Source of the DNA: Verrucomicrobiaceae bacterium | GTDB lineage: Bacteria > Verrucomicrobiota > Verrucomicrobiia > Verrucomicrobiales > Verrucomicrobiaceae | Length of the DNA stretch: 64,000 bases | Direction of reading: 5' to 3' | Assembly: GCA_016795365.1 (NCBI GenBank) | Contig: JAEUHN010000047.1 | Span: 62,001 to 126,000, forward strand | Shown: in pieces, positions 27,417-61,288 of the stretch | Position numbering within the stretch: position 1 is the first letter of the stretch | How the letters are laid out: each line of letters opens with the position of its first letter | Position numbers and translations under genes: made by a program | Notes under the pieces: model-generated | The model's database searches: none | What the model was told of the DNA's origin: nothing | What the model saw: the letters and a program-made list of their open reading frames with translations, nothing else

Positions 27417-30400
27417 ATGACTACTCTTCGTCCATTCCATCAAGCCCGGCAGAAAGTCGTGCCGCTCATGATTGTGGCTCTGGCATTCTCCCAGATGCGG
27501 TCATCGGGTATTGATGTCTATCTCAACGGACGCAGTGATGGCTTCACTGGCCCCGGCAGCTTCTCCAACTGGAGCTATCCAACCGCCCAGGACCGCATTA
27601 TGTGGGGTGGTGGACTCGCGGCTGGGGCCATGACCGCGAATGCGACTACACCTCTCGGTTCGAACCTCTTGTCAGTGAAGGGCATCAAGGTGCTGGACGA
27701 TGCCACAGGTGCCCTGACCATTCAGGCCCACGGAAGTGGCAATACCACGCAGACGCTCCTTCTCGGTGATCAAGGCATTGACCTTGGGTTCGCCAGCCAA
27801 AACCTCACCATCAACAAGTCCAATGCCGGACGCACCCTGGGAGTGACCCTCGGCACGGCACAGACGTGGATCGCTGGTAATGGGCGCACGCTGGCTGTTA
27901 ACGCCGATGTCACGGCCAACAACAACCAGCTCACGCTCGCCACCCGTGGCTCGGGGGCCATCACTCTTGGTGGTGCGACGAACATGGGGACTGGAGTGCT
28001 CACGATCGACAAGCAAGGGACCGGTGCGATCAACGTTACGGGAGCGCTCACGGCTGGCACCATCAGTGCGGTCAATGCTAACAGTGGCACTGTGACATTC
28101 GGGACGACGGGCACCGCTGCGGTCAATGTCCCCGTCCTCAATCTGACAGCTTCGAGCACGGGTGGTTACACCTTCGCTGGGGCGACAACGGCGAACGGAG
28201 GCATTACCTTCAATGGTCTCGGCTCCAACACGCTGCAGTTTAGCAGCACGCTGTCCACCTCTGGTGGCAATGGCAACCTTACCGCTACGACGACCAACGC
28301 TGGCGCGCTGACGTTTGTGGGCGCCGTGAATCTTGGGACTGGAACCTCGACTCTCAATCTCCACACGAGTGGTGCTACTCAATTCCAGTCCAGCCTCAAC
28401 GCAGGCTCGCTTATCGTGAACTCCACCAAGGGCGGTGCCATGACCTTCACTGGGGCGCTCACAGCCCCGACGGTGACGATCAACACCAAGGGGACAGGGG
28501 CTTTGACATTTGGCAATGCCAACAGTGTCGGCACGACTGGCTTGAGCGCCTCCTCAGCCTTCACGATGAACAACATTGGTGCGGCCAACGCCACCTTCAA
28601 CAGCACCGTCACATCGCCAACCATCAACATTAACACGGCTGGTGCCCTGACGATGTCGAGAGCCGTCTCGGGCACCACGTTGAACTTTACCACCTGGGGC
28701 GGTGGCGCGGCGAGCTTCGGTGAGACCGTGAGCGCAACGTCCGTGCTGAACTTCACTGCCAATAACAACAGTGCCACGACTTTCACAGGCACGGTCACAG
28801 CACCCACATTCAACCTCATCAACCGTGGCACGTCCGCTGTTACGACCAACGGGATTAGCGCCACAACAGCGATCAATATTACCAATGACAGCACTGGTGC
28901 CATCAACCTGAACGGACCCATCTCGGGTGCCGGAGCGCTTACGATCGTCAACAACAGCACCTCTAGCGGCACGGTGGTGAAGCTGGCTGGCAATAACACC
29001 TTCACCGGAGCTACTTCAGTCACAGGGGGCACTCTTCAACTTGACCTTGCCACTGCGAACAACAACAAGCTCGCCGACGCGGCTGCGCTGAAGCTCAATC
29101 GCGCCATCGTGAACATTACGGGTCCGACCAGTGGCGGCGTCCAGGAGTTGATCGGAAGTCTTGCTCTCGATGGCGGTTTCAATCGAATCACCCGCAGTGC
29201 TGGAACTGGGACGATGAGGGTCAATCAGATTACTCGTAGCGCTGGTGCCGTGCTCGACATGGGGGCGGCAGGTCTTGCCGACACAGACCGCCTCAATACT
29301 TTTGGAATTTTGGGCGGTTGGGCCACCATCAACGGCACAGACTGGGCGATCAATGCGACGGGTGCAGGCGATGGCTTGATCAACGCACTGGCGACTTATA
29401 CCACGCAGAACACTGTGACCTCGTGGACCACACCATCCCAGAATATTCTTGTAAACCTCACCTCTGGAAACACGACGGGCACGCTTTCAGGAACCACAAC
29501 GATCAACTCGCTGAAGATCGACAATGGCGCTGGCACCACTAACATCAACGTAGCAGCCCAGGCGTCTGGCTCCACATTGGTCATTGATAGCGGCGGTATC
29601 ATTGTCCGCGGCACGGGCACGGGTGGAACGAAGACCATTGGCTCTGCTGGTGGCAATATCACTGCTGGAACCCTTGCCAACGCGACCGCTTATCGTGCAG
29701 GCGCAGCCACGAGCGATCTCTTCTTCCACGTTGGATCGACTCCCGACACCATCCTTAACTCCAACATCATCGACAATGCGGCGTTAACGGGATCCACCTC
29801 CGTCGGCTTGGTCAAAACGCAAGCGGGCAAGCTCATTCTCCTTGGCAACAATACCTACACCGGAAAGACGACCATTGGTGGCGGCACCCTTCAGGTGGGC
29901 AACAATACGGCCACAGGGACGCTGGGAAGCGGCCCGATCGAGATTGGCCCTGGAGCCACCCTCGCTTACACCCGCACTGATGCGGTGACTCTCGGTAGCA
30001 GCATTTCAGGCGGTGGTGGGCTTACCCAGAACAATGCGACCGGTGCGCTGACTCTCTCCGGCAACAACACTTACTTCGGCAGCACAACCATCTCGCTCGG
30101 TGCCATCAAAGCGGGTTCTGCCAATGGGTTGTCCCTGAACTCGCTGTTTAGCCTGGCGAATGTTGCCAGCGCGTCACTTCAATTGAATGGATTTGATTCT
30201 TCAATCGGAAACCTGGCTGGGGGCGGCACCACTGGTGGGAATATCGCTCTGGGCGGCAACAAGCTGACGATCGCTGCTGGCAATGCTTCTCAAACTTATG
30301 CGGGCATCATTTCGGGAACGGATGCCAGTTCTCTCGTCAAACTGGGAACGGCAGTCCTCACGTTGTCTGGTGCCAATACCTTCACGGGCACCGTCACCGT

Positions 30401-51400: not shown

Positions 51401-53792
51401 AACGCTGAGCGGCTGGAGGGGTGCGTTCAGTGCAACGATCCCAGCTACAGCTCGTGCTGGCATCCACAACTTCAAGGCATCGATTCCGGCGCTCCTACAG
51501 GGCGACGAAGCGAACTATCCGCAGGGTGACAGTTACGCCACGGCGAATGTTTCGACAGCTGGTTCTGTCGCCGTTGCTGGCAAGGCCGCTGATGGCTCTG
51601 CTGTGACCACCACCGCACCATTGGGTGCGTCAGGCCAGTTCTTGATTTACCAGTTCCTTTACACGGCTGCCAAGCCTGGTTCGTTGGTCGGAACAGCGAC
51701 CATTGACGACGTTCCCAATGTGCATGCAGTGACTGGCGCTCTCACTTGGAGCCGCACGGGCGGACAGCTGGCCACGACTCCATATCCTAATGGCTGGGCA
51801 GCTCCGATCCCGCTCACTGTTATGGGTGGTCTTTATGTGCCGCCGGTGACTCCGTATGTGGTCATGGCTGCCAATCCTTCGGCCGCTACTAACGCGAAGA
51901 TCACCTTCTTCGACAGCACAGGCATTGATACTTCAGAGTCGGCGCAGGCGGTTGACGCCAATCTCGCGGCCTTTAAGATCAAGAGTCCAGCCGTTTACAC
52001 TGCGCCCGCATCAAATCCGGCGTCTGTGACGATGAGCATTACCGCTGCAACGGGAGCAATGACTGGAACCTTCAAACTGAACGACGCTGGAAAGACTCGC
52101 AGCGTAAGCTACTTCGCTTTGATTGTGCCTGATACCACTACGGCAAGCACTATCGACCAAGTCGGCGCAGGCTACTTCACCTTGCCTGGACAGCTTGCTG
52201 CCACGGGAATCAGGTCGGGACGCGTGAATATGGTTGCCGACCCGGCACCTGCTCCAGCTTACGCGCCAGTATTGTTGCCTCCGACGTTCCCAACGGTGGC
52301 GGTTTCCGCAGCATTCAATTATGCCTTCCCATACGACCTCGATCCCGCGAAGGCTCCCACAGTGTGGACAGCCACAGGTCTTCCAAAGGGCCTGAGCATC
52401 AACTCTTCAACGGGTGTGATCAGTGGAACGCCTGTTGCGACCAGCACCGGACCAGTCACGTATAACGCCATTTATGTGACCGCCAAGGGACGTGGCGGTG
52501 TGACGGTTCTCGGACCGTTCACGATGGTTGTTGCTCCGATCCATCCCAATGCCATCGGCACCTTTGTGGCCTTGGCTGAGAGAAGTGGCGGCACGGCTAC
52601 TGGAAAGGGTGCGACCAATGGCACATTGGGCATTGGAGCTCGCGTGGACATCACTACCACCTACACAGGAACTTACACCGGCAAGCTTGTTGTTGGTGCC
52701 ACATCCTACGCTTTGACTGGCAATCTCGACAATTCGGGAGCTAACCCAAGAATTGTGAAGATAGTGACCAGAGCGGCTCCGCTCACACCGCTGACCGTCA
52801 CATTCGACATCCTGACAACCGGCTCACGCCTGGTGACAGGCACGATAACAGACACCGCAGCAACTACTGCGAATATCAGCGGTTGGGGCTTGGTATGGAA
52901 CACAAACAAAGTGGGTGGTAATCCTGCTACGGCGCGTGCGGGACTCCATAACTCGATGATCTCAATTCCGGCACTGCTGGAAGGTGACACCGCGAACCCG
53001 GATGTTCCTCAGGGTGATGGCTACATGTCCGCCAATGCAAGTTTGGCGGGTTCCGTTGTGGTGGCCGGCAAGACGGCCGAAGGCGCGGCCATCACTTCCA
53101 CTGCTCCAATGGGGCCCAACGGCGAATTCCTCGTTTACCAATTCCTCTACACCGCGACCAACCCCGGATCCATTTCCGGCGCACCCGTCATCAGTAGTGC
53201 CAACCATGGTGTCTCAGGCACCTTGGCTTGGGTTAAAGCGCAGCAAGATACTGGCACGCTTTACAAGGCGGGATGGCCGGCCGCAGCCCTCAATCTTGAA
53301 GTTTCAGGTGGGCTCTATGTAGTGCCCGTGAAACCAAACAACATTTTGGGTGCCCGCAGCGCTGATTCTCCGGTGGGAGTGGCTGTGAACTTCAACGATT
53401 ACATCAACGCGACCGTCACTTTCTTTGGTGACAACGGATTGTCCGCCAGCTATTCAGCCACGAATCCCAATCACGACCTGAACAACGACGGTGCGACGAA
53501 GCAGCAAGGAGTGCGAATTCTTAGCCCGGCGACGCTGGGAACCACAACTACGCGGGAGAACCCTGGTGCAATGACGATGACATTTACCGCAGCGACGGGG
53601 CTGTTTACCGGCTCCATCACGCTTAAAGATGGGGCGACCACGCGAGTTGTCCCATATTTGGGGATGATTGTTCCAGACGCGACAACCGCAACGGCGAACG
53701 ATGCGATCGGCGCAGGCTATTTTGTTCTGCCGCCGCTGAGTCCCGCCACTGCGTCCAAGTCGGGGCGGGTTTCATTGCTCCCGATCTTCTGA
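27417..53792 (+). CDS. Giant autotransporter-associated beta-strand repeat protein (8791 aa)
   Basis: This single open frame of 26.4 kb encodes a predicted surface or secreted beta-helix protein. A signal-like N-terminus (residues 1-31, MIVALAFSQMRSSG) comes first. Short TINTKGTGALTF-like beta repeats follow to about residue 550. At least 18 autotransporter-associated beta-strand repeats are then spread over ~560-7400; examples are VKTQAGKLILLGNNTYTG (nt ~29810), FVKTGPGTLMMAGRNTNTG (~32570) and LTKVGNASVVLDGLNTYTG (~43710). Two blocks of GMxVxGxxIPxGT repeats are embedded. The C-terminus has two Ig-like domains (~7590-7765) and a duplicated module of putative-Ig (He_PIG) plus an unknown domain. 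No autotransporter barrel, PEP-CTERM, Por sorting or LPXTG signal was found. It is followed 178 bp later by Verru_Chthon cassette genes A-D, whose products look like minor pseudopilins. Export through a T2SS-like route is therefore the best guess. Charged residues are scarce; Gly, Thr, Ser, Asn and Val dominate. Confidence 0.93.
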   Translation: MTTLRPFHQARQKVVPLMIVALAFSQMRSSGIDVYLNGRSDGFTGPGSFSNWSYPTAQDRIMWGGGLAAGAMTANATTPLGSNLLSVKGIKVLDDATGALTIQAHGSGNTTQTLLLGDQGIDLGFASQNLTINKSNAGRTLGVTLGTAQTWIAGNGRTLAVNADVTANNNQLTLATRGSGAITLGGATNMGTGVLTIDKQGTGAINVTGALTAGTISAVNANSGTVTFGTTGTAAVNVPVLNLTASSTGGYTFAGATTANGGITFNGLGSNTLQFSSTLSTSGGNGNLTATTTNAGALTFVGAVNLGTGTSTLNLHTSGATQFQSSLNAGSLIVNSTKGGAMTFTGALTAPTVTINTKGTGALTFGNANSVGTTGLSASSAFTMNNIGAANATFNSTVTSPTININTAGALTMSRAVSGTTLNFTTWGGGAASFGETVSATSVLNFTANNNSATTFTGTVTAPTFNLINRGTSAVTTNGISATTAINITNDSTGAINLNGPISGAGALTIVNNSTSSGTVVKLAGNNTFTGATSVTGGTLQLDLATANNNKLADAAALKLNRAIVNITGPTSGGVQELIGSLALDGGFNRITRSAGTGTMRVNQITRSAGAVLDMGAAGLADTDRLNTFGILGGWATINGTDWAINATGAGDGLINALATYTTQNTVTSWTTPSQNILVNLTSGNTTGTLSGTTTINSLKIDNGAGTTNINVAAQASGSTLVIDSGGIIVRGTGTGGTKTIGSAGGNITAGTLANATAYRAGAATSDLFFHVGSTPDTILNSNIIDNAALTGSTSVGLVKTQAGKLILLGNNTYTGKTTIGGGTLQVGNNTATGTLGSGPIEIGPGATLAYTRTDAVTLGSSISGGGGLTQNNATGALTLSGNNTYFGSTTISLGAIKAGSANGLSLNSLFSLANVASASLQLNGFDSSIGNLAGGGTTGGNIALGGNKLTIAAGNASQTYAGIISGTDASSLVKLGTAVLTLSGANTFTGTVTVGAVDGANVGGLTISGATAIKGATVNAGTLTVTHATATTNMTIGGAVNVTGGSFVMGGTGTNTISGALNVSNAGAASFSGASPSINTITGAVTVGNAGSVSFTNVANITGKVSVNDQASFALNGAAANNTLTGGLEVAPGASVALSGNTTFNGAGLLLNNGGALTMAGANVFNGPLVIGGPLALTLSNTTTANVFNGQVTVNAGSLAVSHATNTFNGLVTMASPNTLNVTGTGVTTFGAGASVTNGTLSVAGSANVSAGGISTSNVGSVSVTGLTTVAAGGLNLAGSGNMTFTGGVNVTGTSSFNNTGLLTIGGSNTFNGNVIFSNPRPVTLTAPVVNGAITVNSGSITVLGPTSGLTGLTANNGGGLIVTAAPSVTALPINLSGGPSNAASSLTINGTLTAQVGTLPLNTSAFLGSGVTAELAPSSATTYAGVIAGSGGVAKNGSGDATISGGNSFTGTLAVNSGTLFAAPSTSNPGISGVIGDRASVVVASGATLDISGRSETVGSLAGAGSVQLGQNGELVAGRNNSSTVFSGSLLGSGSSSLTKQGNGTLTLSGSSTGANSKVTVEGGSLVLASPGNSALPDTTDVDLARLGTSLVVNTSESVRILSGAPGTSVQINGGATLTASYFDTAFTSIGGTLTGGSRVVTGMDSPGTRFLTAGMYISESNFIDNGTWVTQVVGTGLTGSQGLLLGSNILSPGGVGTINFYKVGVLNSALTGAGNFVKTGPGTLMMAGRNTNTGDTVVNQGTVVLGGIESGGRYIFQNILSDQSAVVLGTSARVEMPLNASNLLPFERVGSVSGGGGSAAFSLVSAFSSSEKSVGALAFGGDNSDRTFVGVIEGQDTAARVFVMKEGSGTFVYRANNLGYDGITRVDGGTWVIPAPTAFNSFSSGLNGSAAQSRLELSNRAGVVFRTEITQPMPFLVGGVGVTKTFRTGTLGALAGNYINQTGGELQVGVGAAFAVNGTGGETWFSGAVTGAGGFSKSGTVAMVLAGANTYTGDTVVAGGDLHLGYLSAGAGVGDLRPGGQSGSFSASTLVNLSGGGSVHLNGLNTSVRTLASSNGSAVVTLGNGTITLEDGSGETFQGAIRSGGGFSSSGNGLVNIGQVVLKTGSWTVKGDQTIDGPSVAVQSGGVLNINSSTNNALRDSTRVFVGTGGSVVVGGDSGNSAETIGSLHGTGTVNLGTGRTLVLTQAGGSSHGIFGGQITGSGSSLVLDGIGRLDLQGTNTYSGETAVKGAATLSFSVGTGTSSTRLSDSSVLRLGQGNILLRDGRDTNGSTLANPIAPTIETVAGLTLDRGANTIRQEPGSLGAMNVGNITVNQGAALNVSKNAVLTTASNLETHPGGALAAPYLGGWATFDGRSWAKVSELDGGETVISGLEEGAYVSGWFPGSHTLLTGSFSVTPSGSNTSITTETLAIGAITGLAADLVINRTGVINSGGILVTPELGGAEFNILPGANSPALRPGGNQFFVHQYNAQGVTKIAVPLEDGTSATSLTKTGQGTLVLTARNTFSGPVTIGGGTLQLGDGTSTETQLLSFSTGDMINHGILSGNASSGDVIDVSNNVVGSGGVRQIGEGGLSLSGAQNTYTGRTSVVRGQLDATTPTALGSTDNLTAVELGATLSVLDNILEPVALKGGTINTIANLGGTLIVAGDSNVNVTSGQVSLNAPVLAPLNHVPTFSVSGDVLNLTQPMAVRSVVFAGGNVNVQAGATLGAGTIVNDGALSFVTGNTHRAIAQQISGTGGLTFNSGEWFIGENNTYTGRTEIGFAPEVGGATPSTVRTVVHVGLDGFSGSLGTGDIEVTSPTDNNSAIRFHRMDTLTVPNQILLNPNTNGSTAARNVDFVKEGLGNLVFTGTLISGRTDLAPATQRALVTVNGGGRMIFQGGGATHHNFDNSNSRLIAINNNGHIEFRSNDPSHTDTIYGALGGGGTWVFNGGTIQLANQGLNSGGWNGNAFVNKGVLETSIDDQLGADLDIIVTNGGTLRVGGIDSSGNLFSQKGGVVEINSSRLTFDDGDEKSVNGRIIGSGDLNIQGGTMNLYATDNSFTGTLMVTNGTARVRTLANNNVPSSAGSGADIQLGWHDASVTPVSLGTGTLEYIGLGSTTNRNIILGSPSAEALDVARTSFTVSSNGLGALVLNGNVVTTSVSGVDVVGRKAFVLTGENRGDNIFSGNITPTSIAASDEIDLVKNGNGTWHLTGGNRSSFRGDVDINGGILVVDSLSELGNLAVARDFNIGAGTLQVQTAAAITETLAANIRIGSTATGGISNIGNSTLVINSTIYSATINDDPANPLSGAGSHNLVLDGTNTTANTINGVIGGVGNNMGITKNGSGRWVIANSANLLTGGTTINAGTLEITGGNALADAGTVNLSNAAVNGFATGNSRLNIGQSETIGALQGAIGTTVALAAGQTLSLVGGSATFQGVIQEDGPGAGLTVTSNTNDSARIATFSNINTFSGPVSILGGTLPDRSAANRIDVYYLANGGTGSGIGSSSNAASNLTINTNGKGGGLRYIGFNTVNTDRLLTLGVGNGATIGESAASIWADGQISGNKVPVLNFTNTGALAYTGSGNRKLTFRGGNRGDGVNLNTFSPAIADGPGGVTSIGKTDDSVWLINGNNTFTGSVAVERGTIAFAGSGLGTGTGTVTVTQPSNDIRSFFDLKGGVVSNRNVVLVGGANNTGNGWGASAGVNVWNGSVANDGGNGIWGVLGASTVLTINGVVTGGNTINKVGNGRLELAGANTASGAINVMGGTLKLNYATQNNSKLADFAGLTLGGTGATAVQGGGNRGGTSTAFQRGSIIEIGGGSHTEVVSGTNLNAGASSITRSIGDTGNSKLNLAGITSNVGGTLDVVLPDFLVTNATTTASSTTVTCDSTGLIAPGMIISGPNIPMGTTVLSITGPQTFVLSRPANGAGSGQTLRGLASSTVTLTRVFTNNGNTTITCASTAGLSPGMVVLGASIPAGSNVSAVDSATTFRVTTAPTQTSVNITVNSVSFPANYVSGSKVVTCASTSGIAVGQAVSGTNVPASTTVAAVTGPTTFVLSNAVTATVAVPLILFTVPGGATLANGSTNGTNTITVTSTAGLVPGMIVSGTNIPVGAKVASVNTNGTEFTIDVPTTGNGSGIAIAAATQSVALTSTLNNTTVTGVLGGYVTVNKTFWAQSGTTGTGLAIVPATNYFSSLQNSTLPGLWSNQPAFVNANLDIAASMNASGTIGLVTFNTPTSVNVTVQGKANVSTGGVLITPNVGANTISFNVASTNTYNLTNCVTTAANVKVVCDSTAGLVAGMAVTGPNIPANSTIAAINDATSFNLGSATGVTAGTGLSLTASYLTSVTNCSFTTASRNVTCDSTVGLLTNSLISGPGFPSGASVESITNATTFVVNVTPSAASTPGTTLTVKPAITGGNTGGAAQLAIHQHNTAAPVILNTPIVNSGTTAIALTKSGLGELVLMGNNTQTGGTFINEGTVRVGQGGTAEATLGGNAATQVNGTLILDAAGAETRLASNGNFRGDGTVTLAATNTRAWVVGGSSGAFNGTINVLGGKLVMAPSLDNDDVGFGSSNSTMIVGPLGTIEFRGNTRTDEQYGMANNLTLYGTVRADFQDVVTGVVPRIQSAITIPTMVPAELAPGGISVANNPVFDIVTAAQLNLNNLIYSSIGITKMGQGRLVLNAQQTSDALLGDTGRSASYTLSGQIRVNQGELWLSGGNRASGAPGVGNEIVVASGATLDLRGQSMNYADDASPLRKIIQIQGAGFSQPFGAGTISTGALRNTTGTATISHLELLGNATVGSGGVANNGRIDLQPYDINPNTGAAVGSLVNFQPATLTSVGGNYNLTKIGTVDFVIHDALVTGLNQFKVAEGELRWEINNAPNAGNGNITAAGIQNLLIAYSNQSPLDATLGTPSGGPLVQGPVVGSRVEFYRNYNQHHTMPISMDGATAAANKGTNYLEANSDGASGSSVPASRVYLDGGISVSGPATSNMFNIDGGLGNNVLASQGNQSQDVLLKMIVGAPISGLGGISKIGFRELRLTANNTYTGDTIIARSGNMALPGRSDTVSLNGVDYTTLGAAESWGEFGLTLNGGGRISGTANVIMERTGMLTLDNSTRLDASSAAVTTNLSDRVNNAANVIMRQGWLRLIGADTGNTSEAIATVGGAKLQAQSGTNLIDLWPKEGSNQTLTLTIGEITRSPGAVLRFRNLDATSGFSSTAVGSHENVQVALTSLGSLPEVGSGASATSRKIIPGLLGGSAPNGIYEDTRLTSDLFSQGRNLQNATGSHFMTWDGGFLRPLDDSEYASTSNGVISSALNGQNVNVTDFNHFVRESVSLNSLRFGPTMDSNASGSALHDGSQITSYTDNWQPTIYIDSSAVLSVASGMISSAAFGVVGTGIDETTRIRGGAIDFGSREGIINNQNYWLRLTDGTYQTNNFELQTAIRGSGGLTKVGNASVVLDGLNTYTGTTTINDGVLFARNGRSALGANGRANGVINTGNNIVVQGSGDFRLTNGVMIGAPGAPKDLLVKILSGESQILRSENGNNAFYGNITLDNVDANGHTSQLGRPRMSANTNQSLVINGDIAGGNTALTDDIYYTDSRMLSLNGAGYIWLRGQVGDKFDSNGLPVPVSGVVTSLPSSATVTNENQVFRLQITANDDLNVAFDKQYNAAGRLSMDRGVMLVNYDPAALGLGETGFWTQAALSRLTGDPALGGSTTTITSNSTNANGLTSQHGFLLANNLGDGGGTAAVFLTKANQVFNMPEWRVSNNHGGAAWIGGTNETGTVTFGGLSGVYTSGLGTLSLDKTARFYAMSGGNVVINHRLNGGSFIKVGRGKVTLQNSVVKTGSDTQSFELSGGELVLDMNGQFTTSGTTNTPVALVGNVGTFTSTGGILRVQGVSKDWGGLLGGADPASGNNVTVSISTNNDAAGRLVRFNSGLTQIIADARDGKNVTLSMGSTVTQNNGVGSVQRTLGATASFVAYNSTGPTAYSQTANMAASITTAQNTTISGVTVVNGSVSVTDGTFTWSQASGSSSSLWTVSYNASTQVVSVTYNPALGAARTLTINCLVQGTSRINLNISADNTAALANGIIPWAVTGTGPNLAHEFALIDATDGNRVKGFGRSPDEFKNDITLWSRGEDVSEDTADSRTGGAGFYGTLAAGGTVNTLRFDAAADSAINVASGQSLFVANSGLLVTSNTGVANKTINGGRLVASLIMSGRVTKDQNIVTGLDSTSELYIGMPVSGTGIPAGTFVQEIVSATSVKLTTLATITTVRPTQGIQFGTAELIVHQYGQGDLTINSGMGNGTTSLANGVTTLGSNVVTVPSTVGIVPGIILIGNNIRAGATVVSVTSATTFTMSLPAFAGGNTGSILLVAPRTMPATVAGANASSGSAVVTVATTEPVVEGMVVTGPGIPNGTLVLTKDSATQITLTNKVTSALNNDVLYVTMPNDVPSAAVVFTGGVTRLDSTLASVSSTAPMFEGMGIVGTNIPANTVVRTLASSADPNNLTDFQLSQNATAAASGLTFTAIKGAVVLNNASVTANSNVVNVTSTTGLFPGMPVLLPHVPAGAVVQTVPSSTSFTISIPVPAVISGATTGLTGFVQYPGSMPSLLTGGQTFSTPGNERKLVVSTTAGITVGLPIIGPNLPSGTVVEQVFNATTLIVSKNVTGAGTGNYLIGTKSYLPLTLLNAIITNGSNVIHVASTAGLGEGLVVIAPGIPGGATVVEVNSSNAFTVSSNANASSSGNTITVVSPMSLVVSGPTTTTGGTVNTGAVVLTNTDNNYGGKTYINGGILSIDDEAVLGPEPANEITDQITINGGTLRWTGPNGLLSQTRGITLAASGGVIDVVNPSTNLMIQKGIVSQELYRGDLIKTGAGTLTFEGDNGNMGSFQGLIDVKQGTLRVAGDNPGAGAGTSSIFGSNISWADGTVMRSGTNLMLQMGNANGGGDWNFEEFITFEGNNFVTVGTLGAAVRPMNWNGPIAMNGTTTFEIVPGQIFRFNTGGGFIQGNGDIVKDGQGTLEFRENIPDWKGGLSILQGRTLLVNQGDAMGSGNRIAFTPTLQNPAPAAGTGSFIDGNVFTNTKFITLGSNQSQGVAELLIQPDLGTAGSVWEVNHPINVVYGPAQTKRLGAAFIPNVNGSIQRFNGDITLNDNLILYYEDNNASTAAGGEFVNVEYNGRFFDGSLTSGNLVIDTNEGANGGTRVDNTNGRTFVTHSFNADNSGWTGDLVISNNTTYGPDQTSIARLGHSLALTAKNDVTMNYNSILQAGGNSVTIGSLQTKGGTGAFLGNVGTVSANVNASTEIIENAALTPGTLRIAQATPSNVEVKWDAHFRDGTPASTVTAPGSSIGGASLSIVKAGEGWASLTLQNQYTGTTVVEQGILQVGVNGIGDTGAVRNANIAGLTLNAGATLAGSGTVQGAALLNGLIKPGDVGGAAMGTLSITGNVVFGAGSETFFQISRPSFTMPELLNATAAVVADPVYQSQRDNLLLYDTTKYVNELNTPVLSSQHDSLTIGGTVQVTPGAKFTVLLNGYSPTAGDVFRLLNLDSNNTLDATGAPGLLAISTGNALQSVSSGIEDLILPSLGDAFLWDTSMFTSHGLLLVVGSGPVPDNLTPTTWPLNRLVPLNSSWTMNVAAAGQQPISYIWKKNGAPIVGATGGSYTIPSVNASTVGKYSASATNSSGSVERPAAVIAAVDTTTTSTTLLKTNGTTTLKVVTAIPTAVPAGYFGYQWMRNGVPINDTDTAASSASIKPYVGTTTATLTIKSFAAEFEGVYTCRVTMSKSIPNTSNPTTAPSLVTGANTVLLASIPEIGPVALPSGKVGSTYGPPSGYQVPHTTTPANKKPTSWSATGLPTGLTINPLTGVISGTPTQSTTSTIKFENIRITATNAAGSVTAGPFAIVVAPLSTNVVGTFVALADRTGTDTTGTLGLGARLDVTVGANAQWTGKLIIGAVSYPISGSLNSSGLNPTATKAITRSGEKPAKSNLNLFLEFDASNGGLVSGTITDAGASPTTATLSGWRGAFSATIPATARAGIHNFKASIPALLQGDEANYPQGDSYATANVSTAGSVAVAGKAADGSAVTTTAPLGASGQFLIYQFLYTAAKPGSLVGTATIDDVPNVHAVTGALTWSRTGGQLATTPYPNGWAAPIPLTVMGGLYVPPVTPYVVMAANPSAATNAKITFFDSTGIDTSESAQAVDANLAAFKIKSPAVYTAPASNPASVTMSITAATGAMTGTFKLNDAGKTRSVSYFALIVPDTTTASTIDQVGAGYFTLPGQLAATGIRSGRVNMVADPAPAPAYAPVLLPPTFPTVAVSAAFNYAFPYDLDPAKAPTVWTATGLPKGLSINSSTGVISGTPVATSTGPVTYNAIYVTAKGRGGVTVLGPFTMVVAPIHPNAIGTFVALAERSGGTATGKGATNGTLGIGARVDITTTYTGTYTGKLVVGATSYALTGNLDNSGANPRIVKIVTRAAPLTPLTVTFDILTTGSRLVTGTITDTAATTANISGWGLVWNTNKVGGNPATARAGLHNSMISIPALLEGDTANPDVPQGDGYMSANASLAGSVVVAGKTAEGAAITSTAPMGPNGEFLVYQFLYTATNPGSISGAPVISSANHGVSGTLAWVKAQQDTGTLYKAGWPAAALNLEVSGGLYVVPVKPNNILGARSADSPVGVAVNFNDYINATVTFFGDNGLSASYSATNPNHDLNNDGATKQQGVRILSPATLGTTTTRENPGAMTMTFTAATGLFTGSITLKDGATTRVVPYLGMIVPDATTATANDAIGAGYFVLPPLSPATASKSGRVSLLPIF
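38971..40600 (+). repeat. Six GMxVxGxxIPxGT repeats inside the giant protein (block 1)
   Basis: Four units lie at about 38971-39795 and two at 40183-40600. Each reads roughly CxSTxGLxxGMxVxGxxIPxGTxVxxVxxxTxFxxS over 45-60 residues, for example STAGLVPGMIVSGTNIPVG. Most units in this block carry a Cys at the TCDST/TCAST position, in a protein otherwise almost free of cysteine. Similar units are known from large surface and phage fibre-like proteins. Their role here is unknown. Confidence 0.75.
45997..47614 (+). repeat. Seven GMxVxGxxIPxGT repeats inside the giant protein (block 2)
   Basis: This second block holds about seven more diverged units of the same motif, for example STVGIVPGIILIGNNIRAG and STAGLGEGLVVIAPGIPGG. 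Unlike block 1 the units carry no Cys. A further weak unit may lie near 32290-32460. The two blocks are some 5.4 kb apart, suggesting duplication and divergence within the gene. Confidence 0.7.
50781..53789 (+). repeat. Tandem duplication of a ~500-residue C-terminal module
   Basis: Module 1 (about 50781-52239) and module 2 (52260-53789) share the same order. A He_PIG domain (SATGLPTGLTINPLTGVISG / TATGLPKGLSINSSTGVISG) is followed by a ~400-residue domain with GTFVALA, PATARAG(I/L)HN, SIPALL, YQFLYTA, GGLYV, GAGYF and SGRV. The second copy ends at the protein C-terminus. I infer a surface-attachment or secretion role; nothing in it names an enzyme. Confidence 0.8.
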
Positions 53793-53906
53793 TCGATAGG
53801 AACACTCAAAGGGCGCTTCGAATTCGGATTTGGGGCACCTAAACAATCATTACCTCATTTTAAGCCGCCATTGCACCCTCGCTCATGTAATTGCATTGTA
53901 ATTCCA

Positions 53907-53935
53907 TTGACTTGGCGCAGTCATTCTGGTCAAAT
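53907..53935 (+). promoter_or_regulatory. Weak candidate promoter before cassette gene A
   Basis: TTGACT at 53907-53912, a 17-bp spacer and TCAAAT at 53930-53935 lie in the 178-bp gap between the giant gene and cassette gene A. The -35 box is good and the -10 box poor. The gap is A/T-rich with no other notable structure, so the cassette may be transcribed on its own or by read-through. Confidence 0.3.
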
Positions 53936-53970
53936 CTCGAATAAGATCAAAAATCAAACAGGTCTCGGTT

Positions 53971-56900
53971 ATGAAAAAACAACTTTTTGGCTTCTTGAAG
54001 ACCAACCGAAAGGGGTTGGCTCTGATCTCAGTTTTGGGCGTCGTTACCTTGGCAACGATTCTCATTCTGGCTCTTTTTTCTGTTAGTGATGCAGAGTTCA
54101 AGGCGGCCAAAAACTACTCGGATGGAGCCACGGCTCGGCATTTGGCTGACACCGCCACGAATTTGGTGATTTCGCAGATACAAGCCGGTGCGACTGGGGC
54201 TGCGATTGCGGGCTCACAGTCTGTGGCTGGTAGAACAACATGGGCATCCCAACCCGGCGCAATTAGAGTATATCGAACAGATGGTGAGTTCATTGAAGGG
54301 CGTCGCTTGTATTCCTCGGACTCAATGGTCATTACCCAATCGGGACCGGGCGGAGAACTCAAGATGGCAACAGACGCCCCAGGCTCCGAATGGGATACCA
54401 ACAAGGCTGAGTGGGTAGACCTTAACGAGCCGGTGATACGCGCTTCGGCAGTGGGAGGCAACACAAGAACCATTTTCCCAATCGTGGATCCTCGTGCAGC
54501 GAAAGTTTATAATGGCTTGCAGCCGGTGGAGGGCTTTTCGTTTTCCAGGAAGCTTCTTTCTGGTGACCTCCCTGGAGTCGTCGATAACGGCGAACCTGAC
54601 GACCTGAGGGTCCCCATGCCAGTAAGGTGGCTGTATGTCCTCAAGGATGGATCCATGGGGACAGTTAACTCGACCTCCAGCACTACGGCCACTTGGGTCA
54701 ATACCAATGGAGCGGGCCAGCCGTCAGCCGCCAATCCCATCATCGGTCGCGTCGCTTTCTGGACAGACGATGAGTCGTGCCGAATAAACATCAACACTGC
54801 CGGTGAACCCGGGCAATTTGCAACACCCACGGTCTTTCATAATCGTGATGCGGCCTGGGCCAATTACCAGCCCGTTTGGGGCGAGTATCAGCGTTATCCA
54901 GGGCACCCGGCCACTGTAGCACTTAGCAGCGTTTTGTCCCCCAATCCAACCCATAACCCGTCACAGTATGACGGTGATGGATATCTTGGCGGGACGTCGA
55001 TTCATCCAAAGCAAGTAATCAACCTCAAGAGCTCGATTTCACTCCTCGTGCCAAAACTGGGCCACGGCGCTTCTGCTGACGGCACCATCCCCTACGCCCC
55101 CGACGATTTCAACAACACCAACTCGCCTGAAATTAGTGCGTTGATAAGAGAGCACGAGCAAGTTTCTCAGAAGCACCTCTTTGCCTCTGTGGACGAGTGG
55201 ATCTTTGCTAACAGGCAGACGAGCAACAAGGACAGAGAGATTGTAGTGGCAACTGGGCCTACAGGTTCACAACTAGTCAGCCCGGATATTCTCGAGCGAG
55301 GGAGGTTCTTTTTGACAGCCAGTGCGCGGTCTTCAGAGCTTAATATGTTCGGATTGCCACGAGTGGCTATTTGGCCGGTTCCCGATGCTGATTTGGGTCC
55401 GAAGTTCAGAACTGGCTATGATGCGACCATAGCATATGCGTCTTCCCTTGGCAGCACTCGGCGTGATGTCTCTGGCATTTCCACCAACAGCTATTACTTC
55501 AGCCGGCGAGACGCCAACAGTGCAATCGAGGATATGGGTGGCGGCACTCAGTCCCCTGGCCTCACCAGAAATGGCAAACTAATGACCTACCTGGATGCGT
55601 TGATCAGTGGAGCCAAGATGCCTGGCGGAGACACTTTCCGAGGTAAATACGGAATGGACGATTCTCGTCAGATTTTGGTGCAGATATTCGATTACATTCG
55701 AATCACCAACTTGTATGACGCGTTCCTTGATGACCTTTATGTAAAATCCCGAGGAAAAAGGGATTTTTGGGATGATGCGACACCTCCCGCTGCTGGTGCT
55801 ACGAAATTGAACCGGCAGCAAGACTTGTGGAATCAACGGCCTGAGGAATTTTCCTACTATACTTATACCGCACCTCGGTTTGACACCATCAGACGTGTGG
55901 GGGACCTTGGTGGCATTGTTCCCACTGAGTTCCGCGACCAGTATCAAGACAAAAGGATGACGACAGGGTCCTATCCTGGACATGGACAAGTTCGCCCCAT
56001 CCACTGGACTATCGGCGAAAAGACATACAAGGGTTTTGGGAGATTCCCCACAATATCAGAGGTGGCCCTCCAGTTTATATGCACTGGCGATGGAAAGAAT
56101 GGTCCCGGAAGCTATGCTATGCAGGGCACCAATGGGGAGCAGGTATTGAGCGGAGGAAAGACAGCGCAGCGAATCAACCCAGACGTGGAAGCTCCTGAGT
56201 TTGATCGGACGGGCCTCTCAAGAGGCAATGATGGCAATGGAAATCCAATCCCATTGTTCTGGTATTCCAACTTCCCGCCCTTCCCTTCAAAGCAGCTCTT
56301 TGAGAAGTGGGGTTGTGACTTTGCTCAGTGGGGCCAGGGAGGTCCTCGAGACCCACTTCGTCATCCCGCTATGGATCCCATGAATTGGAACTGCACGCTC
56401 GAACACAATCAAGCTGATGGTGGTATCGAATTGAAGGAGACCGAGAAGCGCATTCAAGTGGTGATGCAGATGGAGCTTTTTGTGCCAGCTGTCGGATACA
56501 CCAAATACGCTCCTGACTTCACCATTGTTTTGAATGGGAAGGAGCTCGGCAACTTCCAAATTGAACGAACCCTTCCATCGGGAGCGACAAGATTTGATTC
56601 GATTTTTAACACCACTACAGACCAGGTGGTCCAATCGACAACTGCCTACATGGGCAGTGCCCTTGGGGAGGCAGTAACGTCTGTCAATGTTACGCCCCTG
56701 GGAGGTAGCTACGGCACAACTCCGCTTATGAGCGGTCGCCAAGCAAAATCAATCGGCCTTATGCCGCAAGATCCCAACTATAACACTTCGGCAACGGGCG
56801 ATCCTCATAGTGCGATGTTGAACTTCCCGCTGGTGAGCAGTTACTTCACTGTTGATCGGACCAAGAATATTAAGTTCAAGGCTCCCAAGAGCCCGCTCCG

Positions 56901-58953
56901 CATTGATATTTATGCGTCGCATGACTGGCTGGGCAAGAACTCCAAGAAGAACACGACACCTGCCCAGACTGTGATGCTCCAGTTTGACGATGGCGAAGTT
57001 CCACCGCCATGGCTCGTTGTGTATTCAACTGAGAAATGGAAGGAGATCGATGGCAGCGGTAACTTGTATGAACGAAGGGCGATTCATGCTCCTCGCTGGT
57101 GGTCATTTAACGTCGGAGGTGCTCTTCAGCGGTATGAAGGGTCAGCCATCTATTCGGGGTCCAATCTCAGATGGAACACCAAAGAGCATGTTTTCAACGA
57201 ACAGCGAGATCTTGATACAAGAGGGCGGTTTGCAGGAACTGGCAACACCCTCACGAAGACGATGCTGCCAACTGGAGGAACGACCGATGTGCCGTCGCAA
57301 CTGCAGATTTATGGCTACTCGCCAATTGGAAACTTCAGAGGGGTGAAGTCAAACCCTGAGAAGGACTTGATCAATGAGAGCGTGTATCAGCCTGTGGTTC
57401 GCAACAGGGATGGCAAACCCGGGATGGGCCAGTATGGCTTTTGGGGCACTGACTCCATACGTAGTATGGTTCCGGCACATGGGGATTATCGGATATTAGC
57501 TGCCCGCCCGGTTGTTCCCGCGACGGTGTGGAAGAAACATCGAGTATGGCAAGAGCGTCCGAATGATTTGTTTGCTCACAGCTTAATGGGTGCGAGGTCT
57601 GATTTGGAAGTTGGTGTCGATATCGGCAGCGGCAAAAATGACCCTCTCACTGTCGTTTCTACCAACCGTCTGGTATCTGCATGGTATCCTGTCACTCAGG
57701 TTCCCGATACGCCCTTGACGCCCACTGCAAGAGCCGCCTCTACACTCAGGAGAGACTTTGATAACGGTATTGGGGACATTCGAGACGGGGCTTACATCAA
57801 CAAACCAGATGATGGAAATTTGAGTGTGGATCAGGAGTGGTATGGGACTTCCAAGCGCTTTTACACGACGAGAAACTCTTATTTCAAGAGCAGCTTTCTT
57901 CAGATTCCATCTACGGGGTCGTATTTCACGCCCAATCGTATGCTTTCTTCGCCTGTCATGTTTGGATCGCTACCCACTGGTGTGTATGGCTATGCTGGCT
58001 CCACGCCAGACGAGCAGACAAACGGTGTGCCATGGCGCACCCTCTTGTTCCGGTCTGACCCTGCGCTCACCCACTATGGTAATGGCATCAAATCACCAGC
58101 TGATCACAACATCCTTGATCTGTTTTGGATGCCGATTGTCGAGCCCTACGCGATTAGCGACAGCTTCTCTTCGGCAGGCAAAGTGAACATGAACTACCAG
58201 ATGGTTCCGTTCACACACATCAAACGCAAAACCGGAATGCACGCCGTGCTTAAGGGCGAACTTATGACTGCTTTCTCACAAAACGATGTGCGGACAGGAG
58301 TTCCCGGTGCGAACAGCACACTGATATATAAAACATTCAAGAATGGCAATGCTGCTCCACCAGAATTCTGGGGTGAGGGTGACAAAATGCAGTGGCACAG
58401 AAAGGTGGAGATTGATTCAACACTCGCACAGTTCGATGATCGGTTTGAGATGAAGACACCACGTTCAGGAACGAAAGCAGGATTGTTCAGGACGGCTTCG
58501 CAAATTTGTGAAATTGACCTGATACCCAAAACAGGGCGTCCAGGTGAGCCTACTGTCGGAAAACCAGCTAATGATGCTCAACGGCGAGCTGTTATGAACC
58601 TGTTCTGGAACTATAACCAGATCACAGGTGACAACACCCGTGAGAGACCCTACTCAAACATTTATCAGAAAGTTACCACGCGATCCAATACCTTCCGGGT
58701 ATATTTTATGGCTCAGGCCATCAGAAAGGCTAAATCAGTCTCACCTGATCAAATTGACTTGAGCAAGGACACAGTGACTGGCGAGTATCGTGGGTCGGCA
58801 TTGATCGAGCGTTTCCTAGATTTTTCGGCTGCGGAGCGAGGTTCAGCTCCTGTGGCATTCCCTGACTATGCAGATGCTTCTCCGCTCTCCAAGGCATCGC
58901 TTGAGACTTTCTATCACTTCAGAATTCTGGAGACTAAACAATTTACTCCTTAA
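53971..58953 (+). CDS. Verru_Chthon cassette protein A (GspK-like giant minor pseudopilin)
   Basis: This 1660-residue protein matches the Verru_Chthon cassette protein A family, found in Verrucomicrobia next to large beta-repeat proteins. The N-terminus MKKQLFGFLKTNRKG followed by LALISVLGVVTLATILILAL is a prepilin-type leader and hydrophobic helix. Cleavage is expected after Gly15. Residue +5 is Ser rather than Glu, as in GspK-type pseudopilins, which also lack Glu5. An early RHLADTATNLVISQIQ helix follows, like the GspK N-terminal region. The remaining ~1600 residues form a periplasmic or extracellular ectodomain with no domain I can name. Many Trp, Tyr and Pro residues and a middle region rich in short beta segments suggest several folded domains. 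Gene B starts 3 bp after its stop. Base composition is A/T-richer than the rest of the window. Confidence 0.88.
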   Translation: MKKQLFGFLKTNRKGLALISVLGVVTLATILILALFSVSDAEFKAAKNYSDGATARHLADTATNLVISQIQAGATGAAIAGSQSVAGRTTWASQPGAIRVYRTDGEFIEGRRLYSSDSMVITQSGPGGELKMATDAPGSEWDTNKAEWVDLNEPVIRASAVGGNTRTIFPIVDPRAAKVYNGLQPVEGFSFSRKLLSGDLPGVVDNGEPDDLRVPMPVRWLYVLKDGSMGTVNSTSSTTATWVNTNGAGQPSAANPIIGRVAFWTDDESCRININTAGEPGQFATPTVFHNRDAAWANYQPVWGEYQRYPGHPATVALSSVLSPNPTHNPSQYDGDGYLGGTSIHPKQVINLKSSISLLVPKLGHGASADGTIPYAPDDFNNTNSPEISALIREHEQVSQKHLFASVDEWIFANRQTSNKDREIVVATGPTGSQLVSPDILERGRFFLTASARSSELNMFGLPRVAIWPVPDADLGPKFRTGYDATIAYASSLGSTRRDVSGISTNSYYFSRRDANSAIEDMGGGTQSPGLTRNGKLMTYLDALISGAKMPGGDTFRGKYGMDDSRQILVQIFDYIRITNLYDAFLDDLYVKSRGKRDFWDDATPPAAGATKLNRQQDLWNQRPEEFSYYTYTAPRFDTIRRVGDLGGIVPTEFRDQYQDKRMTTGSYPGHGQVRPIHWTIGEKTYKGFGRFPTISEVALQFICTGDGKNGPGSYAMQGTNGEQVLSGGKTAQRINPDVEAPEFDRTGLSRGNDGNGNPIPLFWYSNFPPFPSKQLFEKWGCDFAQWGQGGPRDPLRHPAMDPMNWNCTLEHNQADGGIELKETEKRIQVVMQMELFVPAVGYTKYAPDFTIVLNGKELGNFQIERTLPSGATRFDSIFNTTTDQVVQSTTAYMGSALGEAVTSVNVTPLGGSYGTTPLMSGRQAKSIGLMPQDPNYNTSATGDPHSAMLNFPLVSSYFTVDRTKNIKFKAPKSPLRIDIYASHDWLGKNSKKNTTPAQTVMLQFDDGEVPPPWLVVYSTEKWKEIDGSGNLYERRAIHAPRWWSFNVGGALQRYEGSAIYSGSNLRWNTKEHVFNEQRDLDTRGRFAGTGNTLTKTMLPTGGTTDVPSQLQIYGYSPIGNFRGVKSNPEKDLINESVYQPVVRNRDGKPGMGQYGFWGTDSIRSMVPAHGDYRILAARPVVPATVWKKHRVWQERPNDLFAHSLMGARSDLEVGVDIGSGKNDPLTVVSTNRLVSAWYPVTQVPDTPLTPTARAASTLRRDFDNGIGDIRDGAYINKPDDGNLSVDQEWYGTSKRFYTTRNSYFKSSFLQIPSTGSYFTPNRMLSSPVMFGSLPTGVYGYAGSTPDEQTNGVPWRTLLFRSDPALTHYGNGIKSPADHNILDLFWMPIVEPYAISDSFSSAGKVNMNYQMVPFTHIKRKTGMHAVLKGELMTAFSQNDVRTGVPGANSTLIYKTFKNGNAAPPEFWGEGDKMQWHRKVEIDSTLAQFDDRFEMKTPRSGTKAGLFRTASQICEIDLIPKTGRPGEPTVGKPANDAQRRAVMNLFWNYNQITGDNTRERPYSNIYQKVTTRSNTFRVYFMAQAIRKAKSVSPDQIDLSKDTVTGEYRGSALIERFLDFSAAERGSAPVAFPDYADASPLSKASLETFYHFRILETKQFTP

Positions 58954-58956
58954 AGT

Positions 58957-59466
58957 ATGAGTCGAACAAATACTGGATCTGTCGCTCCTGTTTCTCGCTC
59001 AAATGGGACCTGTGGTTTTTCGCTTATCGAGACGGTTTTGGCTCTTGGAATCATGGGCTTGGCGATCACCGCTTTGCTCGGACTGCTTCCTCATGGAATT
59101 GAGATGTCCAGGAAGGCTGCCAATGTGAGTGCTATGAGTCGAATTGTTGATTCGATTCAGAGTCGTCTACTGATGAATAGTTTTGTGGCACTGAAGAATC
59201 TTGGTTCCACGACGCTTCATTTTGATGATCAAGGCGCTATCCTTGAAGATGGGGGGGACTTGACCATGAGCTCTTACGTCGTGCGTGTTCGACCTGCTAG
59301 AGGAACTGCCCTCGCGACTCTCCCTGGAGCTGCTCAGAACGAGGAAACACTACTTTGTTTCGCGGTGGATATTGCTGCGACAGCCAATCCAAATTTCAAC
59401 TTTGAGAACGCAGTGAAAAACTCGTTTGACTCGATTCCGCTGCACATCGCTCCGCTAGTTCCCTGA
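58957..59466 (+). CDS. Verru_Chthon cassette protein B (GspI-like prepilin)
   Basis: This 169-residue type IV prepilin-like protein is expected to be processed after Gly20: CG followed by FSLIETVLALGIMGLAITAL, with Glu at +5. A long leader (20 residues), the hydrophobic helix and SRKAANVSAMSRIVDSIQSRLL resemble minor pseudopilin GspI. Only three bases separate it from gene A, so translation is probably coupled. Near 59251-59257 a run of seven G lies in the coding sequence. It belongs to the cassette B family of Verrucomicrobia. It should sit in the inner membrane and be assembled into a pseudopilus tip; that role is inferred. Confidence 0.85.
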   Translation: MSRTNTGSVAPVSRSNGTCGFSLIETVLALGIMGLAITALLGLLPHGIEMSRKAANVSAMSRIVDSIQSRLLMNSFVALKNLGSTTLHFDDQGAILEDGGDLTMSSYVVRVRPARGTALATLPGAAQNEETLLCFAVDIAATANPNFNFENAVKNSFDSIPLHIAPLVP

Positions 59467-59499
59467 TTCGCTGTTCCAGCATTAATTTCACAACCTATT

Positions 59500-60585
59500 A
59501 TGACAACAACATTGGCAATGCTGAGGCCTTGCACTCATGAACGTCCAGGAGTGAAGGTGCGGGCTTTTACTCTTGTTGAGGTGCTTGTTTCCATGGTCAT
59601 TTTGGCCATGATGATGCTGATCATCACGACGGTGATCAGTCAGGCACAGCGGAGTTGGAAGGCTGCTTCCTCAAAGGTCAGTCAGTTTCGAGAGGCGCGT
59701 CTGGCGTTCGACACAATCACAAGAAATCTGCGGCAAGCTTCGATAGATACTCATCGAACTTTCTTGTGGGGAACGGCCACCTATTCGAGTGATCCACTAG
59801 CACCTCCAAGTGGGAGTGGACGAACGGCTCACTTGGGAATCAAGTTTGATGCGGCCAGCCGCTTGGTATCGGGTGGGGGGGGGGCGGCAGAGTTGCCTGG
59901 TCATGCAGTGATCTTTCAGGCCCCTCTTGGGAAGACAGCGATGGGTGAGGGCTCAAGTCTGGACATCTCAGGCCTCAAAAATTTGCTCTGCACGCGAGGC
60001 TACTTTGTCCAGTTTGGAACTGATGCGAGTTTCCTCCCTATTGGGCTAGCCTCCCGACTTCAGGCTAAATACAGGTATCGCTTGTATGAATACCAGCCCA
60101 ACACCGAGAACAACACGGTTTACAATGTTGCGGGTAATCAAGAGTGGGCAACGATAGAACTGAGTGACGCGCGAAACACGGTGCGTCCGTTGGCAGACAA
60201 TATCTTGATGCTCGGATTCGCAGTATCATTTGCTTCTCCTGCTGCCGATTCTGTGCCCAGACTTGCGGGTAACTCAGACGAGATGAGTCTGGAGTATGGG
60301 TTTAACTCTTATGAGGCACCCGAGGCGGCCAAAAGGTTTCGCCTTCCGCGGTATGCGCATATTTTCATGATAGCGATGGACGAAGAGTCTGCTGCTCGCC
60401 TTGCTCAAATCCACAACACAAGTCCTCCCGATAGCGTGCGCTCATCTGGAGCGACTTTCACGAGTCCTAACCAGCTCTTTGGACAAACGGGTGACTTGGC
60501 AAAAGTGAGGGCTTACATGGACAGTCAGCGACTGAATTACAGGATCTTTAACTCGGCAGTTCTGATCGTGGGCTCCGAGTCTTGA
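59500..60585 (+). CDS. Verru_Chthon cassette protein C (GspJ-like prepilin)
   Basis: This 361-residue prepilin-like protein has a leader of ~22 residues. Its cleavage region is VRA followed by FTLVEVLVSMVILAMMMLII, with Glu at +5 and Ala instead of the usual Gly before the cut. The following FREARLAFDTITRNLRQASI closely fits the GspJ/PulJ pattern, and the globular part is larger than in GspJ. A tract of ten G at 59875-59884 codes for part of a Gly stretch (residues ~126-128), a possible slippage site. It is the third gene of the cassette, 33 bp after gene B and 15 bp before gene D. Confidence 0.86.
   Translation: MTTTLAMLRPCTHERPGVKVRAFTLVEVLVSMVILAMMMLIITTVISQAQRSWKAASSKVSQFREARLAFDTITRNLRQASIDTHRTFLWGTATYSSDPLAPPSGSGRTAHLGIKFDAASRLVSGGGGAAELPGHAVIFQAPLGKTAMGEGSSLDISGLKNLLCTRGYFVQFGTDASFLPIGLASRLQAKYRYRLYEYQPNTENNTVYNVAGNQEWATIELSDARNTVRPLADNILMLGFAVSFASPAADSVPRLAGNSDEMSLEYGFNSYEAPEAAKRFRLPRYAHIFMIAMDEESAARLAQIHNTSPPDSVRSSGATFTSPNQLFGQTGDLAKVRAYMDSQRLNYRIFNSAVLIVGSES
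59875..59884 (+). repeat. Homopolymeric tract of ten G inside cassette gene C
   Basis: Ten consecutive G occur in frame and are read as Gly codons. It is the longest mononucleotide run noticed in the window. A gain or loss of one base would shift the frame for the remaining ~235 residues, so it could make the gene phase-variable. It could also be a place of sequencing error. Confidence 0.7.
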
Positions 60586-60600
60586 TTCGGGGGAGATTTT

Positions 60601-61272
60601 GTGAAGCAACTATTTACTGTTATGACTAAAGAATCATGGAGGTCTAAAGGTTTCACTCTGATTGAGATGATGGTCGTTGTGGCAATGATCGCTTTGATTG
60701 TTGCGGCTGTCGCTCCAATGGTTTTCGGCACGCTGATCTCGACTAGACTGTCGTCGGCTGGAGAGACCTTGGCCGGACAGATTTCGCTTGCCCACCAGAT
60801 CGCAGTTTCCAGGAACATGACCGTTGAAGTTCGCTTCTACGAGTATGACGATCCTGAGGCACCTGGGTCAGGTTCTGCTTTCCGGGCGGTCGCTATCATG
60901 CAGGCTTCAGAGACGGGCCAGACCAGTCAAATGGGCAAACAGTTAACTGATACCTACTATCTGCCCTCAGGCATAGCGGTTGGGAGTTCAACTAGCATGT
61001 CTCCATTGCTTGCGACTTCAGCAGTTCGGTCTGAAGCAGATCGAGAAAAGATCATCAAACGCTCCCCCAATGCGAGATACAAGGCTTTTCAGATCAGAGG
61101 AGATGGGTCAACGAATATTGAGCAGATCATGCGCAATGAATATATGCCCAACAAAAGCTACATCACTCTGGCTGAGGACCGAGCTATTGGAGACGGTCAA
61201 AACGTGCCCAAGAATTTCTATGCGGTGCAGATAGACCCTGTCACTGGCAGGACTACATCCTATCGCCCTTGA
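60601..61272 (+). CDS. Verru_Chthon cassette protein D (GspH-like prepilin)
   Basis: This 223-residue prepilin-like protein starts at a GTG preceded by a strong GGGGGAG site (60589-60595), which decided the start; an ATG at 60622 is a possible alternative. The processing site is SKG followed by FTLIEMMVVVAMIALIVAA, with Glu at +5. The segment RLSSAGETLAGQISLAHQIAVSRNMTVEVRFYEYD is the classical GspH/FimT pattern. A globular C-terminal domain of ~150 residues follows. It ends the cassette, converging on the MFS gene with a 16-bp gap. Confidence 0.88.
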   Translation: MKQLFTVMTKESWRSKGFTLIEMMVVVAMIALIVAAVAPMVFGTLISTRLSSAGETLAGQISLAHQIAVSRNMTVEVRFYEYDDPEAPGSGSAFRAVAIMQASETGQTSQMGKQLTDTYYLPSGIAVGSSTSMSPLLATSAVRSEADREKIIKRSPNARYKAFQIRGDGSTNIEQIMRNEYMPNKSYITLAEDRAIGDGQNVPKNFYAVQIDPVTGRTTSYRP

Positions 61273-61288
61273 CGATGGCTTCGTCGGT

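Follow-up and report, generated by a model that had tools for sequence, protein, structure and literature searches.

A candidate minor-pseudopilin tip cassette with an enlarged GspK-like protein, next to a giant repeat-protein gene in a Verrucomicrobiaceae bacterium

Results

The window, by which we mean the whole stretch of 64,000 nucleotides analysed here, carries on one strand the gene of a very large repeat protein, hereafter the giant, followed by four prepilin-type genes, hereafter cassette A, B, C and D (Table 1). This arrangement of an 8,791-aa protein and four prepilin-type genes had been described in the first-pass annotation and is confirmed by the open reading frames and their coordinates. 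The intergenic distances are 178 bp between the giant and A, 3 bp between A and B, 33 bp between B and C and 15 bp between C and D, and a search for a terminator in the 178-bp gap between the giant and A gave none that was convincing.

Table 1 Features of the window and their coordinates.
Feature	Position	Strand	Details
1,705-aa PSCyt1-WD40-DUF1549/DUF1553 protein, planctomycete type	4105-9222	-	
TraG/VirD4-type coupling-protein domain amid otherwise housekeeping genes	11387-12727	+	PF02534, 1.2e-58
Giant gene	27417-53792	+	8,791 aa, 26.4-kb open frame, ATG start
C-terminal ~400-aa domain of the giant	52557-53792	+	best copy, residues 8381-8791
Cassette A, GspK-like with large central insert	53971-58953	+	1,660 aa
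Cassette B, GspI/PilV-like minor pseudopilin	58957-59466	+	169 aa; prepilin site G↓FSLIE
Cassette C, GspJ-like minor pseudopilin	59500-60585	+	361 aa; prepilin site A↓FTLVE
Cassette D, GspH-like minor pseudopilin	60601-61272	+	223 aa, GTG start; prepilin site G↓FTLIE
Terminator-like hairpin just 3' of D	61269-61287	+	hairpin-T consensus match, 0.1 expected
MFS transporter gene, convergent, beyond the hairpin	61289-62584	-	

The giant contains 11 PATR repeats together with Ig-like/He_PIG domains (Pfam scan of both halves), and its C-terminal 3,274 residues are kept open in the related MAG KLAP44 at 82.7% identity, from which we conclude that the frame is a real gene and not a chance one. It starts with a signal-like stretch and ends with a duplicated domain of about 400 aa. 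An autotransporter translocator barrel was absent in the Pfam scan of both halves, which matched PATR and Ig-like domains only, and a PEP-CTERM signal (PEP motif, transmembrane segment and basic tail) is likewise absent, the C-terminus reading ...GRVSLLPIF; PEP-CTERM is present in the relatives L069, L079, L083 and L134. Having neither of these, the giant would need another outer-membrane route, which a type II secretion system (T2SS) fits. In the window's own genome 27 copies of its C-terminal domain were counted, most of them at a distance from cassettes, and six related genomes have 18-42 copies each, in proteins spanning ~540-8,800 aa; the domain was not found in G152 or G071, two relatives that do bear cassettes. 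This copy number and the absence from the two cassette-bearing relatives led us to reject the domain as a cassette-specific recognition signal; it may serve more widely as a surface or sorting module.

Three of the four cassette proteins score above the cut-offs of their Verru_Chthon families, namely A (TIGR02600 of NCBIfam, 950.6 bits, cut-off 332.3), B (TIGR02598, 73.7 bits, cut-off 51.4) and D (TIGR02596, 145.8 bits, cut-off 70), whereas C matches TIGR02599 over its full length (3.8e-67) with 227.1 bits, just below the curated cut-off of 256.5, and is thus assigned to its family by position and best match; the HMM check proposed in the first-pass annotation accordingly stands for A, B and D and falls short for C. 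Comparisons were extended to about 24 relatives, in which 100 regions yielded 104 A genes, and for each of the four proteins 34-57 members were scanned against the families. Scanned one by one, A members matched GspK in 26 of 34 cases and no other family, while B members (57) matched PilV 28 times, XpsI 24 times and GspI 8 times, C members (57) matched GspJ 31 times, GspI 14 times and GspH 4 times, and D members (55) matched GspH 51 times, GspJ 12 times and GspI 7 times. C and D also matched the competence pilin families ComGE/F and ComGD. Since the family matches of B, C and D sit mainly in the common N-terminal helix, independent tests of the assignment were added.

The first of these is the pattern of mature residue 5, which is Glu in 61/61 B, 79/80 C and 74/74 D proteins and in 0/103 A proteins, an absence that has been described for GspK and PilX (PMC7541494). 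The prepilin site of the window's A reads KG↓LALIS and is followed near residue 273 by the motif RININTA, the general form of which, xNxNTA, is present in 85 of the 103 A proteins. Moreover, hhalign comparisons with the GspI, GspJ and GspK proteins of core operons from the same genomes paired A with K at 84% and with I or J at no more than 3%, and B best with GspI at 97%. The pilin encoded at the H position of the core T2SS operon on contig C27 of the window's genome has matches to the cassette-D family and to no other.

Predicted structures agree with these assignments. The GspK fold test of A was carried out on the AlphaFold2 model of a short A from a relative (L068, 1,193 aa, pTM 0.85), for which VIA-align returned four GspK/XcpX entries with Z 10.0-10.4 over 216-263 residues, the next row having 4.0; because the alignments reach from the first to the last residues of this model, A is best described as a putative GspK core that a large insert interrupts. 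This insert comprises ~450-800 residues in the distal part of the protein and accounts for most of the surplus length of the window's A over an ordinary A (residues ~588-790 and 1054-1149). For the window's B, the AlphaFold2 model (pLDDT 88.5) gave GspI chains in all top five rows, with Z 6.7-7.9 and 5.5 for the next row; as Z values under 8 are only middling according to the notes of the tool, the fold case for B rests on the uniformity of those five rows. Foldseek alone found nothing significant for the A model, with GspK at rank 24, and neither a PDB sequence search with A and B profiles nor a BFVD search gave matches. The window's A also stays below the curated score of the GspK equivalog model NF037980 (22 bits against 130), as does the core GspK of its own genome (74.8 bits). 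Taken together, sequence and models give good support to A as a predicted GspK-like and B as a predicted GspI-like minor pseudopilin, and the sequence comparisons do the same for C as GspJ-like and D as GspH-like. The correspondence of A, B, C and D to K, I, J and H that had been suggested from the window is therefore upheld by family scans and the Glu5 pattern, and for A and B also by hhalign and the predicted folds.

The cassette behaves as a unit in relatives, with B, C and D lying within 3.5 kb and on the same strand in 83 of the 104 cases. Its gene order varies (ABCD 27, BCAD 24, BCDA 18, DBCA 10), and through these changes B and C remain adjacent, as expected of an I-J pair. Twelve of the 104 A genes are solitary, including a few located at the edge of a region. 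Such an A without B, C and D is seen in L112, where it adjoins one 1,204-aa protein with the giant's C-terminal domain, and in L118 and L119, where it adjoins tandem proteins of ~1,040 and ~1,207 aa with the same domain. In two MAGs (L189, L190), where A is long (1,571-1,686 aa) and no repeat giant accompanies it, the cassettes are flanked by genes that by eye are of EPSP-synthase/ExbBD-like and cytochrome type. The mostly N-terminal family matches of C and D would also suit prepilin-like surface proteins that use only the prepilin peptidase and form no tip, but the co-occurrence of the four kinds through several rearrangements, the distribution of the four assignments over the four tip positions and the matches of the A and B folds to K and I make this very improbable.

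The link between giant and cassette is narrower than first assumed. Of 100 cassette regions, 10 have a PATR giant of more than 2,000 aa immediately 5' of the cassette and in its orientation, and these 10 all belong to the window's family; the other 90 have no giant in this position. Within the window's own genome, the second cassette (C55) has no giant, and the other giants (9,708, 6,797, 5,097, 4,889 and 4,271 aa) lie outside cassettes. The suggestion that a cassette is dedicated to one giant substrate thus fails as a rule, and the frequent occurrence of cassettes lacking a giant, which the first-pass annotation had listed among the observations that would refute it, is indeed seen. At least six further PATR giants of 2,294-9,708 aa occur without a cassette on contigs C25, C27, C6, C12, C40 and C45 of this genome (G000), and the two checked, on C25 and C27, end in PEP-CTERM. 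Of the 14 giant-associated rows in a tree built from 105 A proteins, 13 group in a single clade, and the association label changes 5 times against 12.5 in shuffles, which indicates that the giant-A pairing is inherited and not accidental. The same clade also contains sister A proteins without a giant (L115, L116, L117, L070, L113 and L114).

Repeat proteins of any size were found within 7 kb of 40 of 100 cassettes, and in two distant genomes they exceed chance near A (p 0.005 and 0.03 at 15 kb, among the matches listed). Outside the window's family, many cassettes adjoin LacI regulators and GH16, GH26, AXE1, SASA, melibiase or CBM9 genes; a LacI-type regulator is close by in 20 of 100 cases, and loci of sugar-utilisation type host cassettes of other families (L055-L067 and others). 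These neighbourhoods leave room for a second account of the locus, in which the tip complex is real and the giant merely a neighbour, the cassette serving other clients, such as smaller repeat proteins with PEP-CTERM or carbohydrate-active enzymes, while giants exit otherwise. The rarity of adjacent giants, the C55 cassette, the cassette-free giants of the same genome and the many cassettes beside sugar genes speak for it; the clustering of giant partners in one A clade, a giant-A gap of 25-29 bp in two relatives and the enrichment of repeat proteins near A speak against it. We consider this account somewhat unlikely, and the pairing of giant and cassette at the window locus is old and probably meaningful.

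Secretin matches (at least 5-15 each) and T2SSE-type ATPases (at least 6-14) are present in 13 of 13 genomes tested, so the lack of a T2SS or type IV pilus core that would have contradicted the first-pass annotation is not seen. The supposed reuse of one core by several cassettes fares differently from genome to genome. It does not fit the window's own genome, where exactly two A genes stand beside no fewer than three T2SS-like operons that include a GspK (on C27, C41 and C1), and where PilB/PilT-type ATPases are also present. It does find support in several relatives. G152 carries at least about 20 A genes. In G136 their number is at least 16, and ATPase, secretin and GspK are united, among the matches listed, at one locus (C17, 74.5-81 kb). 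In G041 it is at least 7, the matches running up to 17, and among the matches listed there is again a single locus of this kind, near 2.09 Mb. The presence of up to about twenty sets per relative suggests interchangeable tips on few shared secretion machines. On contig C6 of the window's own genome, a secretin gene with PilM/N/O-like genes (L020:10041-16534) resembles by eye the Akkermansia locus Amuc_1098-1101.

Discussion

We favour, with slightly better than even confidence, the reading that the cassette encodes an enlarged, exchangeable minor-pseudopilin tip of T2SS type, for which the giant is the likeliest client at this locus. Since none of the cassette genes codes for an ATPase, a platform protein, a major pseudopilin or a secretin, the cassette would have to rely on a core encoded at another locus of the genome. 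A, B, C and D would form a tip on this borrowed pseudopilus and prime it, and the insert of A would contact the client protein. At the window locus, where adjacency points to the giant as cargo, the giant begins with a signal-like stretch and lacks an outer-membrane barrel, and the pseudopilus would push it through the secretin or present it there. Elsewhere, other cassettes that draw on these few cores may serve PEP-CTERM repeat proteins or the carbohydrate-active enzymes of sugar loci. In its widest form, with one or few T2SS cores and up to about twenty tips, each reading its own client through the enlarged GspK insert (giants in one lineage, polysaccharide-utilisation proteins in others), the proposal is a tentative one, which we hold at clearly less than even confidence.

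The known system nearest to this architecture is the T2SS tip GspH-I-J-K (XcpU-V-W-X; 3ci0, 5vtm, 9a1f), with which the cassette shares four prepilin-type proteins, an A that lacks Glu5 like GspK, folds of A and B that match GspK and GspI, and a C and a D that are closest to GspJ and GspH. It differs in the length of cassette A (1,190-1,800 aa with a long insert versus ~300 aa for GspK, the window's A being four to five times the usual GspK size), in forming a stand-alone set that lacks E, F, G, L, M and D, and in its many copies per genome in some relatives. PEP-CTERM repeat proteins (TIGR02595; PMC1569441) are often near cassettes, whereas the window's giant carries no PEP-CTERM. A literature search with the cassette names and accessions, in sources other than subscription journals, found no paper and no published GspK/I/J/H role. 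What sets these candidate tips apart from known ones of T2SS type is the strongly enlarged GspK-like protein and the organisation in cassettes that are stand-alone and multi-copy.

By analogy, the closest working precedent is found in Myxococcus xanthus, where three clusters of PilY1 and minor pilins (clusters 1-3) share one pilus machine and the authors propose tips with different properties (PMC7541494). As in the cassettes, several complete sets of tip genes, each with a large partner protein, are combined with one shared machine; in contrast, the M. xanthus machine is a type IV pilus and not of T2SS type, there are three clusters and not about twenty, and PilY1 is part of every cluster while the giant accompanies a minority of cassettes. 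This precedent also raises the question whether A-D could be minor pilins of a type IV pilus, with the giant as a PilY1-like adhesin at its tip. The common layout with several clusters per genome on one core, the lack of Glu5 in PilX as well, the PilV matches of about half the B members and the PilB/PilT-type ATPases in the genome are in line with this. Set against these are the matches of A to GspK and to no PilX family, its fold matches to GspK/XcpX, the widespread xNxNTA motif, the closeness of D to GspH and the giant's Pfam matches, which comprise PATR and Ig-like domains only, and we therefore regard a type IV pilus as distinctly unlikely.

How T2SSs recognise their substrates is a long-standing open question. 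If the tip reading is correct, many alternative GspK-type tips per cell, encoded beside candidate clients, would make substrate recognition testable cassette by cassette. It would furthermore give a concrete role to an abundant, unexplained verrucomicrobial gene set, and could explain the export of very large surface proteins or polysaccharide-degrading enzymes in these bacteria.
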